Origin: Acidobacteriaceae bacterium
GTDB taxonomy: Bacteria; Acidobacteriota; Terriglobia; Terriglobales; Acidobacteriaceae
Assembly (NCBI GenBank): GCA_009781125.1
Contig: WQYS01000029.1
Coordinates: forward strand, 1-13,721
Direction of reading: 5' to 3'
Length of the DNA stretch: 13,721 nucleotides
Below are positions 1,286 through 7,165 of the stretch, piece by piece. Made by a program: the position numbers and the translations under genes. Numbering within the stretch: position 1 is the stretch's first letter; each line of letters begins with the position of its first letter. The notes beneath the pieces are model-generated. The model was not told the DNA's origin. It saw only the letters and a program-made list of their open reading frames with translations, and searched no databases.

Positions 1286-1566
1286 ATGAATTTTGCCGCA
1301 ATTCAGGCTGCATTGGTTGAGAACCGGCTTGATAGCTGGCTCTTCTGCGACCACCACAACCGCGACCCGCTTGTCTATCGCATCTTCAGTCTCGTTGGTA
1401 GACACGACACCGGCTGATACTGCCTCACACCTGCTTTTCCGTTGAGCCGGAACTCTACTTTTCCGGTGAATTCAGCGTCCGCAACGAGATCAACATGATG
1501 GCCTATCTGGGAAGGGCCGAGGTTACAGGCCCGTGTCAAACGGAACTTCTGCGCATTGAGGTGTGA
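1286..1566 (+). pseudogene. Remnant of an M24-family Xaa-Pro peptidase gene with a large internal deletion
   Basis: Two ends of one gene survive. The ATG at 1286 opens a 43-codon frame containing DSWLFCDHHNRDP and LVYRIFSL, the typical N-terminus of acidobacterial M24 aminopeptidase P/Xaa-Pro dipeptidases (usual form DGWLFYDHHxRDPIAYRVLGL). It stops at 1415-1417. A one-base frame change near 1409-1412 then leads into RLILPHTCFSVEPELYF and a tail ending TGPCQTELLRIEV, stop at 1564-1566. That matches the conserved C-terminal strand of the same family (LPxTCFSxEPGIY). Everything between is missing, including the metal-binding Asp/His/Glu residues, so roughly 280 of about 380 residues (family length from memory) are lost. 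The product cannot be an enzyme. The usual Gly after SVEP is also changed to Glu. It lies just upstream of the AT-rich accessory gene, suggesting one rearrangement event or a decayed insertion site. Confidence 0.8.
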
Positions 1567-1636
1567 GTCTCTTGGTGATACCCTCACTTCATCCATGTGG
1601 AGCTATTGAGACTGATTCGGAAACTTGAGGTGTCTA

Positions 1637-2836
1637 ATGTCGAAGCGTCTAAAGGTGTACTTAGCGGGTCCCATGACCGGCTGCAATTCTGACCAACAGG
1701 TAAAATGGCGAAAAGAAGTTAAACACGCACTCCAAAAGGCTGGATTCGCAACACTTGATCCAACGGCGGATACCGCTCGAAAAGGAGTGTTAGCCGTCGC
1801 AGTGGACATAGAAGAAGCAGACATCGTTATAGCAAATATGTGGAAGGAATCCATTGGCACCGTTGTCGGAATAGTCAAGGCTCAAAAACTTGGTATCCCT
1901 GTAGTTTTGATCGATCGCAATTGCTTAAATAGTCCAGTACTTAAAGAACTTGTTGACTATGTTGTTAGAGATGAAATAGCGGCGGTCAACTATGTGGCAA
2001 ACGAATTAAGTAAAACATTCCAACAAACAATCATTGTTCAGAAGAAACAACGTTCTGGTGGCACCAAAGAAGAAGAGTTTAGTCCATCCAAACTACAGAA
2101 ATCGTTGGAGATATCATGTTCTCGCGTTGGAATTGATGATCCTGTTTTTAGCACCAAACTTTTTCACTGCGTAAAGCGGAATGTACTTAAAAGTGCAACT
2201 GCACAAAAAATTCAGAGCGAAATGATTCGATCGATAATTTTCCAGGAACTCATGAGCCTTACTACATCGGAAGTCTCTGGTTTGCATCAATCTGATCAAG
2301 AAAGAATTAAACAAAATGCAGCAAAAATGAAGCTGTTATGGGAGGATTACGAATTTAACAAGGAGCTTCGCGACGAGGAGAGTGCTCAGGAAAAGATGTA
2401 TCTCGATGAGATTAACTCGTTAAGTTATGAGAATGCAGAACTTCGCTTGAAGCTTCAACTATTATGTTCGAGAAACGGAAACGTCCCAATTGCAGATGAG
2501 TCTCTAGGTGTTAACTTAGCGACTTGTCTTCAGTCACTTCTGGAAAATCAGCGGGCACTCTGTATCCGGCATACATCAATGGGTAGCTTTCAAAGCGCCT
2601 TTGAGCGACTTGGCTTGTCAACCGGTGATTTTGAGCGCTTCTTTGTTGAGGAAACAAAGGACGGAGCGCAGTCCAATCTCAATAAATACCTAAAAGATTC
2701 TCTTGCCAAATACAGCTTTGTTTTATATGCATGGAATGGGCTCCGTCATTGCAGCGATCCTGCTCTTGTGTCGTCACCAAACCTGATTCGAGGATCCGGA
2801 GCGAGTCATGTCATCAGCAGATTCCTTGCCAATTGA
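1637..2836 (+). CDS. Nucleoside deoxyribosyltransferase-like / probable ATP-cone / unknown C-terminal module fusion protein
   Basis: A 399-residue multidomain protein, much richer in A+T than its neighbours (hand count: 32% G+C at 1921-1980, 47% at 2341-2400, against 63% at 3181-3240 in coaX). Residues 5-95 read as a nucleoside 2-deoxyribosyltransferase/SLOG-like Rossmann domain: KVYLAGPM, then D57 and D62 in DIEEADIVIAN, then ESIGTVVGIVKAQKLGIPVV. The position usually held by the nucleophilic Glu (SGTxxEIG) is Gly78, so hydrolysis is doubtful and ligand binding more likely. Residues ~131-210 resemble an ATP-cone (IIVQKK, EEFSPSKLQKSLEISCSRVG, then helices to ~208), the dATP/ATP-sensing module of NrdR and ribonucleotide reductases. 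Residues ~218-278 form a charged, probably coiled-coil stretch. Residues ~290-399 are unrecognised and contain NGLRHCSDP at 367-375. I chose ATG 1637 over the in-frame TTG at 1625 because GAGG (1627-1630) lies six bases before it. No partner gene is adjacent. A nucleotide-responsive defence role is inference. Confidence 0.7.
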   Translation: MSKRLKVYLAGPMTGCNSDQQVKWRKEVKHALQKAGFATLDPTADTARKGVLAVAVDIEEADIVIANMWKESIGTVVGIVKAQKLGIPVVLIDRNCLNSPVLKELVDYVVRDEIAAVNYVANELSKTFQQTIIVQKKQRSGGTKEEEFSPSKLQKSLEISCSRVGIDDPVFSTKLFHCVKRNVLKSATAQKIQSEMIRSIIFQELMSLTTSEVSGLHQSDQERIKQNAAKMKLLWEDYEFNKELRDEESAQEKMYLDEINSLSYENAELRLKLQLLCSRNGNVPIADESLGVNLATCLQSLLENQRALCIRHTSMGSFQSAFERLGLSTGDFERFFVEETKDGAQSNLNKYLKDSLAKYSFVLYAWNGLRHCSDPALVSSPNLIRGSGASHVISRFLAN

Positions 2837-5493: not shown

Positions 5494-6495
5494 GTGAGAT
5501 ATCTTGTCCTTGTTGCGTTGTTCTTCTGTCTGTGCGGAGGCGCGCCGCTGTCCGCGCAGGATCGCTCGTCTCTGGAGATTCCGATACGATACGTCGACAG
5601 CCACGTCTACCTTGATCTGACCAGCGATCAGGCCGGTGAGCTTCACCTCTTTCTGGATACCGGAACCGACAGGTCTGTCGTCTCCGACGTGGCCGGCCAG
5701 AAGCTCGGGGTCGCGCCTCTGCCGCCGCGTTCGATCAGCCGGATTCGCTGCCTGTGGCATCGCTGCATCTCCTTTGAAGGCTATGGTTCCAAGCCTAAAA
5801 CGATGGAATTCAAGCGAGCTTCCATCCGGCTTCGCAGCGGCGGCAGCGAGGTCTACAACGGAAAGATCAACGTGATGAACATGAAGTTATTCTTTCCGTT
5901 TTCGGGCACGAGAATAGACGGCATGTTCGGGTGGGACATCTTCGAGAGGTGGTGCGTACGCCTCGATTACCAGCGCCGGACGATGACGATCACCGATCCG
6001 GGCCGATGTCCTTCTCTCGTCGGCGCCAATGCGGTTGCCCTGGATAGCAGATGGTCTCATCGCGGCGCCGTTGTTCTTACGAATATCGACTTCACCAATG
6101 GCCGCCGCGCCAAAGCCATGTTGAGACTCGACACGGGAAACAATAACTTCATCTTTCTCCGTCCGAAGTTCAGACAGGTTGCGGGCCTGGATCCGATCTC
6201 GCCGAGCAGCAATATACAGATGGGGCGGGGCGTCAACGGAGACTATCAATCCGACGTGGTGCAGCCAAAGCGGATTACCCTGACCGGAGCCGCCGGAAAT
6301 TCTTCGTTTACAAACAGCAGCATCGTGATCGGACGGCCCGGATCGATCTCCGGCGCGAACGCCTTTTTGCGGCTTGTGCGGCGGCTCGGACTGCAACGCG
6401 CCGCCGATGGCGAGATCGGAAACGGACTGCTGGAGAAGATGATCGTCACCTACGATCCGCTTAATCACAAAATCTACTTCGAGCCTCGGAATTGA
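5494..6495 (+). CDS. Exported two-repeat retropepsin-like aspartic protease homologue
   Basis: This 333-residue protein begins with a signal peptide (hydrophobic residues 3-19, likely cleavage after PLSA near 21), so it should act in or beyond the periplasm. Two copies of a retropepsin-like half are visible. Copy 1 has LHLFLDTGTDRSVVS at 50-64 and DGMFGWDIF at 142-150. Copy 2 has MLRLDTGNNNFIFL at 209-222 and EIGNGLLEKMIVTYD at 307-321. Each therefore carries the Asp-Thr-Gly catalytic triplet plus the hydrophobic-hydrophobic-Gly element that follows it in aspartic proteases, so one chain could form the whole bilobal active site. Family knowledge supports peptidase activity; the substrate is unknown. 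The start is a GTG at 5494; an in-frame stop at 5485-5487 excludes anything further upstream, and the ribosome binding site is weak. The last 35 bases overlap the converging XRE regulator gene. Confidence 0.8.
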   Translation: MRYLVLVALFFCLCGGAPLSAQDRSSLEIPIRYVDSHVYLDLTSDQAGELHLFLDTGTDRSVVSDVAGQKLGVAPLPPRSISRIRCLWHRCISFEGYGSKPKTMEFKRASIRLRSGGSEVYNGKINVMNMKLFFPFSGTRIDGMFGWDIFERWCVRLDYQRRTMTITDPGRCPSLVGANAVALDSRWSHRGAVVLTNIDFTNGRRAKAMLRLDTGNNNFIFLRPKFRQVAGLDPISPSSNIQMGRGVNGDYQSDVVQPKRITLTGAAGNSSFTNSSIVIGRPGSISGANAFLRLVRRLGLQRAADGEIGNGLLEKMIVTYDPLNHKIYFEPRN

Positions 6496-6718
6496 ATCCG
6501 AGCGGGTCTGCGGAATTTCCATCCCTGTCGCTATCGTCGAAGATGTCTTCGATCTTCAACTCGAAGACTCTGGCAATGGAGAACGCCAGCGGCAGGCTGG
6601 GATCGTACTTGCCGGTCTCAACGGCGTTGACCGTCTGCCGCGACACATGCAAATGCTGGGCCAGCTCCGCCTGCGACCAGATCCGCTCCGCTCTGAGCTC
6701 ACGCAGCCGGTTCTTCAC
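6461..6718 (-). CDS. XRE-family helix-turn-helix transcriptional regulator
   Basis: An 85-residue Cro/cI-type DNA-binding protein. The helix-turn-helix covers about residues 14-40 (WSQAELAQHL, then VSRQTVNAVETGKYDPSLPL), followed by FSIARVFELKIEDIF, the standard end of the fold. A polar tail of ~20 residues follows. It belongs to the very short regulators that begin (M/V)KNRLRELRAER and usually travel with a small membrane protein. I place the start at GTG 6718 because conserved homology begins exactly there, GAGG lies five bases upstream, and the GTG shares GTGA with the stop of the upstream membrane-protein gene: a classic translational-coupling overlap. A longer reading from 6784 would lie inside that gene and adds only unconserved residues. 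Its 3' end overlaps the converging protease-like gene by 35 bases. Confidence 0.9.
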   Translation of the reverse strand: MKNRLRELRAERIWSQAELAQHLHVSRQTVNAVETGKYDPSLPLAFSIARVFELKIEDIFDDSDRDGNSADPLGFNSEARSRFCD

Positions 6719-7140
6719 TTGTACCTCGCATACGACACAAACATCCCGGCAGTCCATAAGGCTGACATTACCGGCCACACCCATATCCCGCTCAGCCGTG
6801 GCAACCCGACAGCTTCCATCAAACCGTAAGCCGTCGTCAGCATCAAAGTGCCAATTACGGTATAGACAAAGCTGTCTACATATATCTTCTGCTGCATCTC
6901 GTCCATACTGCGGAAATAGTGCAGATTAGCCGACACCATGAGCGGCACCGTCAGTACAGGCAGCACAGCAATCACGTATCTCCATGGCGCGGCAGGATGA
7001 CCAAATTTTATCCACAACATCGCTGCCACAACCGAGAGCACGTAAACAGCAATCGCTACTGATACTTCACGTATTAGCCTGCGCACTGGCGGTCCCCAAT
7101 AGCCTTTCCAACAGCTTTCACGTGTACCAACATCTTTCAT
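6715..7140 (-). CDS. Four-helix membrane protein coupled to the XRE regulator
   Basis: This 141-residue protein has four likely transmembrane helices at about 25-45, 54-73, 92-112 and 118-137. Between helices 2 and 3 is a polar loop, RSMDEMQQKIYVDSF, that I recognise as the conserved feature of small membrane proteins found beside short XRE regulators; no biochemical function is known to me. A longer reading from ATG 7158 is in frame. The GGAGG at 7145-7149 sits four bases before ATG 7140 and decides for the shorter form. The stop TGA overlaps the regulator's GTG. The first gene of a two-gene unit, it may sense a membrane signal and modulate its partner, but that is speculation. Confidence 0.8.
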   Translation of the reverse strand: MKDVGTRESCWKGYWGPPVRRLIREVSVAIAVYVLSVVAAMLWIKFGHPAAPWRYVIAVLPVLTVPLMVSANLHYFRSMDEMQQKIYVDSFVYTVIGTLMLTTAYGLMEAVGLPRLSGIWVWPVMSALWTAGMFVSYARYK

Positions 7141-7165
7141 GTTTCCTCCGTACAACATCCTGATA

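Follow-up and report, generated by a model that had tools for sequence, protein, structure and literature searches.

A single gene in a 13,721-nucleotide stretch of DNA from an Acidobacteriaceae bacterium (contig WQYS01000029.1; the whole stretch is referred to here as the window) encodes a 399-residue protein in which a nucleoside deoxyribosyltransferase (NDT) fold, an ATP-cone, a long helix, and a C-terminal module follow one another. With a probability of about one half, we read this protein as a stand-alone modular nucleotide sensor-effector of the prokaryotic conflict or immunity kind, with the exchangeable tail as its output. Constant front parts joined to unrelated tails are the build of many bacterial self-defense proteins. 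More tentative is the proposal that the family represents a new class of immune protein, with the ATP-cone, a domain previously known from ribonucleotide reductases and NrdR, and a ligand-binding NDT-fold pseudo-enzyme forming a one-gene alarm for (d)NTP pools disturbed during infection, and with effector tails exchanged as cassettes among conflict systems. The original prediction had described a three-block open reading frame (ORF) ending in an unrecognized module; this description was confirmed, and no confident relative was found for the C-terminal alpha/beta domain (residues 290-399). The features of the gene, which is AT-rich, are as follows.

1627..1632, + strand: Shine-Dalgarno-like GAGGTG 5' of the ATG, read from the sequence
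1637..2836, + strand: whole gene, 399 amino acids (NDT fold, ATP-cone, long helix, and C-terminal module)
1640..2026, + strand: NDT-fold domain, residues 2-130
1832..1861, + strand: ANMWKESIGT motif, residues 66-75, from an alignment of 118 rows
2033..2266, + strand: ATP-cone, residues 133-210, with E146 and F148 at the positions of NrdR E56 and F58
2288..2473, + strand: long helix of 62 residues (218-279), from AlphaFold secondary structure; probably a coiled coil
2504..2833, + strand: C-terminal alpha/beta module, residues 290-399, with GKQSNLN and LRH motifs in relatives; distant relatives have different modules in its place

A search with the single sequence returned 14 proteins, and a search with the alignment of those 14 returned 110. 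The C-terminal region of one relative (P0004), used alone, yielded 25, and the total came to 135 protein ids including the window's own. Among 104 aligned members, the ATP-cone was matched by 101, PF05014 and PF15891 by 83 each, and DUF4406 by 73 (E≤0.01), so that the NDT-like and ATP-cone-like blocks proposed earlier both stood. The motif ANMWKESIGT was nearly invariant, with S72, G74, and T75 present in all 118 rows, W69 in 117, and E71 in 115.

Beyond W235 the tails fell into types designated c0 (51), c1 (38), and c2 (11 rows, with the window, whose type this is, counted twice), together with one pair and singletons. Probabilities obtained with hhalign between tail profiles were 2.4% for c2/c1, 0.2% for c2/c0, and 0.1% for c1/c0, and the three main types therefore show no detectable relation. 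As for the alignments, 10 of 113 proteins were dropped from A2 (P0001, the window's own, and others that were short or frameshifted), A4 comprised 24 of the 32 rows of the window type, A8 contained 13 of the 38 c1 tails plus one neighbor protein, and A9 contained 15 of the 51 c0 tails. A core tree (residues 1-212, 118 rows), which was built by a quick method, has 46 weak branches among 115 inner ones, and omits the 10 dropped proteins as well as eight window-type proteins from the P0004 search, required eight changes of tail label where the minimum possible is six; supported branches alone forced one change for c0, three for c1, and two for c2. Type c2 was nested within c1, and P0008, a c1-tailed protein on a long branch, was nested within c2. 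The opposite side of the tree held 55 rows, of which 51 were c0, and the rare tails of P0085, P0088, P0108, and P0089 lay within that type. The tail has therefore been exchanged on several occasions, although most members have retained theirs.

The additional rare tails attached to this core, which include that of P0071, gave only sub-threshold Pfam hints. Some of them appeared HEPN-like by eye (R....H), and a HEPN assignment for P0085 and P0088 was rejected, with HEPN_Swt1 alone appearing at 0.059 and 0.11. Assignment of the window's tail to DUF2325, suggested by eye from strand order and a consensus, was not adopted: it received no Pfam support in either the window protein or P0089, and 25 genomes contained no PF10087 match at 1e-5. 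A resemblance of the c1 tail to RelE/ParE was likewise judged by eye, but its profile matched no toxin structure (best match 0.041, a designed repeat protein), and the c0 profile likewise matched no structure.

The window protein has an NDT fold over residues 2-130, a fold in common with NDT, DNPH1, and MilB (PF05014, PF15891, and DUF4406; the "DrHyd" of the TIR-DrHyd-SLOG clade). It differs from these in that an ATP-cone and a variable tail follow in the same chain, and in having Gly in place of the nucleophile Glu and Ser in place of the preceding Asp. Alignment by MAFFT to a single reference, a PF05014 protein (3.6e-27) encoded beside a family member at locus L193, placed the Glu of the NDT motif at G78 and the preceding Asp at S72. 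The nucleophile of NDT is reportedly Glu98, to which, judging from the motif, we infer that the reference Glu corresponds. Position 78 is G in 105 of the 118 rows (E in 8, D in 3, and S and Q in one each), and the window protein is therefore not classed as an NDT enzyme. Given that this position is Gly in the window protein, ordinary NDT chemistry is unlikely; an altered chemistry through E71 may operate. A subgroup of c1 members (P0064, P0069, P0079, P0081, P0084, P0087, P0096, and P0113) carries Glu at this position and is for that reason possibly catalytic; the many members with Gly can readily be compared with it. No SLOG profile matched the window protein at E≤10, and PF18306 (SLOG) was matched by 14 of the 104 members (best 2e-4).

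The effector of Retron-Eco1 is NDT-like and thus has such a domain in common with the presumed conflict protein of the window. The suggestion that the NDT block acts as an effector of that kind was not supported in that form, given that the window protein lacks the NDT nucleophile and that no reverse transcriptase was recognized by eye in the window's ORF list, on whose other ORFs no reverse transcriptase model was run.

The strongest rival explanation, which we regard as doubtful, reverses the polarity of the protein: the NDT/DrHyd-type domain would be the working enzyme, whose altered active site (perhaps through E71) would cleave NAD+ or a nucleotide, the ATP-cone would be its allosteric switch, and the variable tails would recognize different triggers. 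The NDT motif is indeed among the most conserved parts of the protein, and the recognition part varies in many immune proteins. According to the available part of PMC9503650, DrHyd domains in conflict systems act as NADases or produce signals. The same part of that source groups TIR, DrHyd, and SLOG domains into a single clade whose members sense nucleotides or act as enzymes in immunity, and it is therefore compatible with an output at either end. Against an enzymatic front domain stand the predominance of Gly at the usual nucleophile position and the alignment of the neighboring NDT's Asp with the invariant S72.

ATP-cones read ATP versus dATP in NrdR and in ribonucleotide reductases. The ATP-cone part of the family profile matched the solved NrdR structure 7p37 (1.1e-5) as well as ribonucleotide reductase subunits, and the window protein alone gave a PF03477 match under the curated cut-off. 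As reported in the accessible portion of PMC9110341, E56 of NrdR bonds to the amino group of adenine, while guanine would collide with F58; together these two residues make the site specific for adenine. The window residues aligned with them, E146 and F148, retain the adenine-contacting Glu and Phe; position 148 is F in all 118 rows, and position 146 is E in 83 and V in 18. Whereas the ATP-cone of NrdR and ribonucleotide reductases accompanies a zinc ribbon or a reductase, that of the window protein has an NDT fold on one side and an exchangeable tail on the other.

These similarities raise the alternative of a NrdR-like regulator of nucleotide metabolism, in which the C-terminal modules would bind DNA or partner proteins. 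NrdR is among the best structural relatives of the ATP-cone profile, and some sources label members "transcriptional regulator NrdR family protein." We nevertheless consider this explanation improbable. No zinc-ribbon family was among the window protein's Pfam matches at E≤10, the N-terminus being instead an NDT fold; the distribution is scattered, whereas a core regulator would be widespread; and in 7 of 13 carrier genomes a second, weak ATP-cone match occurred in a separate frame of 148-199 amino acids, probably NrdR itself. An enzyme of nucleoside salvage or hydrolysis that responds to ATP/dATP and takes no part in conflict is very improbable, for although it would account for the NDT fold, the ATP-cone, and the PF05014 nucleoside deoxyribosyltransferase gene that adjoins one family member (L193:8830-9312), the usual nucleophile is lost in most rows, the tail types are unrelated, and occurrence is rare and scattered.

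The reading as a sensor-effector of conflict draws on links to defense genes, and the anti-phage design that the original prediction had considered plausible was supported in part. Of the defense-candidate families HEC-07 and NsnC in PADLOC, whose library gives no description of either, HEC-07 by its best model matched 27 (1.8e-19) and NsnC by its best model 17 (E≤0.01) of the 104 aligned members; the C-terminal part of these families corresponds to the helix and tail of some c1 relatives. Ten relatives were also scanned one at a time: three, all of type c1, matched HEC-07 along the helix and the tail, partly from residue 173 onward, and seven had no PADLOC match (P0011 and P0017 of c1; P0014, P0024, P0037, and P0070 of c0; and P0089). 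The window's own tail is of another type, and the window protein had no HEC-07 match at E≤10 and no PADLOC match.

Genome context was available for two copies of the window type, L001 and L194. At L001, in a metagenome-assembled genome of Terriglobia, the window-type gene ends approximately 140 bases before a HEC-07 gene on the same strand (566 amino acids, 2.1e-35, L001:4979-6676), which is followed by genes for a UvrD helicase and then a PD-(D/E)XK nuclease. Pfam returned nothing for the HEC-07 protein at 0.001, and no NDT or ATP-cone is therefore seen there; its C-terminal domain aligns with c1 tails. The window-type copy itself (L001:3358-4840) gave two separate matches, with an open frame from MWRES, and looks broken (out of frame or interrupted) in its NDT part. 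At L194, the locus of the nearest relative, P0002, the upstream gene resembles gyrB as judged by eye, and the small gene between the two had no Pfam match.

Elsewhere, PADLOC-supported neighbors adjoin c0 or c1 members: PDC-M33A (1.1e-99) and PDC-M33B (1e-39) at L009, HEC-01A (4e-41) at L005, and STK_OB (7e-71) at L196. Five of ten neighbor proteins scanned with PADLOC had no match, and a SoFic match probably stems from a Fic protein that neighbors the family member at L191. Defense-candidate neighbors were thus found at 4 of 19 loci, with one more inferred, the gene-by-gene scan having been limited to the loci named. Collectively, 124 neighbors at the 19 loci matched 161 PADLOC families (1e-8), compared with four for 130 control neighbors around the p162 gene (the gene upstream in the window) in 20 relatives. 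Each set comprised up to seven of the nearest called genes within 6 kb, of at most 900 amino acids each, and the genes were called with a home-made program that admits some false ORFs.

Several observations limit this link to defense. The contrast between 161 and four is inflated, given that one helicase accounts for 33 families and one ATPase for 29, and that the control represents a single conserved neighborhood; of the 25 PADLOC families listed, some of the commonest are generic helicase models, DpdF for one. By eye, several loci (for example, L192 and L194) appear housekeeping-like, as do the window's own flanks. The proposed link to defense stands for some relatives, which adjoin PADLOC candidates or have the c1 tail in common with HEC-07 and NsnC, and does not extend to the window's tail or to its surroundings. 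No recurring partner gene was seen in the displayed neighborhoods, and the protein thus probably works as a single-gene unit.

With regard to distribution, matches were found in 8 of 399 genomes of the class of L001 (1e-10), one of them a 35-residue fragment, and, with a window-type alignment, in 1 of 40 genomes of its order. Four other groups gave 3 of 256, 7 of 259, 2 of 261, and 2 of 154 genomes (1e-20, seed genomes included); the larger genome searches score only a handful of candidates in each genome, and some carriers may have escaped them. Two further features of the window lie upstream of the gene or span it.

785-2859: synteny breakpoint, where the yraN-p162 block meets the coaX-birA-nadC block
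1286..1566, + strand: probable remnant of another gene, two pieces in two frames, outside the protein; no Pfam match

In 20 relatives carrying p162, coaX was not within the fetched 19-kb stretch; it was found elsewhere in 15 of the 20, adjoining birA in all 15 and nadC in 14. The window therefore joins two blocks that are separate in relatives, and the gene sits where they meet, although the junction may derive from a chimeric metagenome contig. The gene of the nearest relative lies approximately 300 kb from the p162 homologue of the same genome. In most of the 16 other genomes compared, the G+C content of the family gene is near that of its surroundings, with L194 the clearest exception (0.480 versus 0.582), and the low G+C content of the window gene is therefore not a trait of the family. 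Horizontal acquisition in the window fits the scattered distribution, the breakpoint, the low G+C content, and a site unlike that of the nearest relative, in agreement with the acquisition originally proposed. Carriage as phage or plasmid cargo was ruled against: the window protein had no match in 50,697 phage records, one plasmid record matched residues 5-122 only, and IMG/VR gave no match for the window protein alone or for a window-type tail. With the family alignment, IMG/VR yielded 127 relatives, the best 80 of which all end by query residue 161, essentially the NDT part.

The upstream remnant was taken by eye for an M24 peptidase, an assignment rejected in the absence of a Pfam match and of any tblastn match in the 20 p162 or 15 coaX regions. 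At window positions 6461-7158, a gene for a small XRE-type helix-turn-helix protein (Pfam HTH_3) adjoins one for a 147-residue likely membrane protein; their G+C content (0.51-0.57) is below that of most window genes, and they possibly constitute a second acquired pair.

The original prediction knew of no described system that joins an NDT domain to an ATP-cone, and none appeared among the literature matches listed, which covered titles and the start of abstracts and included few subscription papers. "ATP-cone" with "SLOG" gave no match, "ATP-cone" with "deoxyribosyltransferase" gave ribonucleotide reductases only, and "ATP-cone" with "defense system" gave crAss-like phages only. NDT domains fused to AbiJ-NTD1 are mentioned in PMC3710099, in the available part of whose text "ATP-cone" is absent.

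If the protein is a sensor-effector, its ATP-cone would read adenine nucleotides, distinguishing ATP from dATP, and the NDT-fold domain, lacking the usual nucleophile, would offer a second pocket for a nucleotide ligand. The 62-residue helix would link the state of both pockets to oligomerization, and the exchangeable C-terminal module would act as the output, which would probably harm either the cell or the phage. A phage that upsets the nucleotide pool would then switch the protein on.

If the proposed reading is correct, one chain that combines two different nucleotide pockets with an exchangeable output domain would give bacteria a direct and testable sensor of phage-induced changes in the nucleotide pool. 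The ATP-cone would join the parts list of immune sensors, and the ANMWKESIGT core would serve as bait for new effector domains attached to it.
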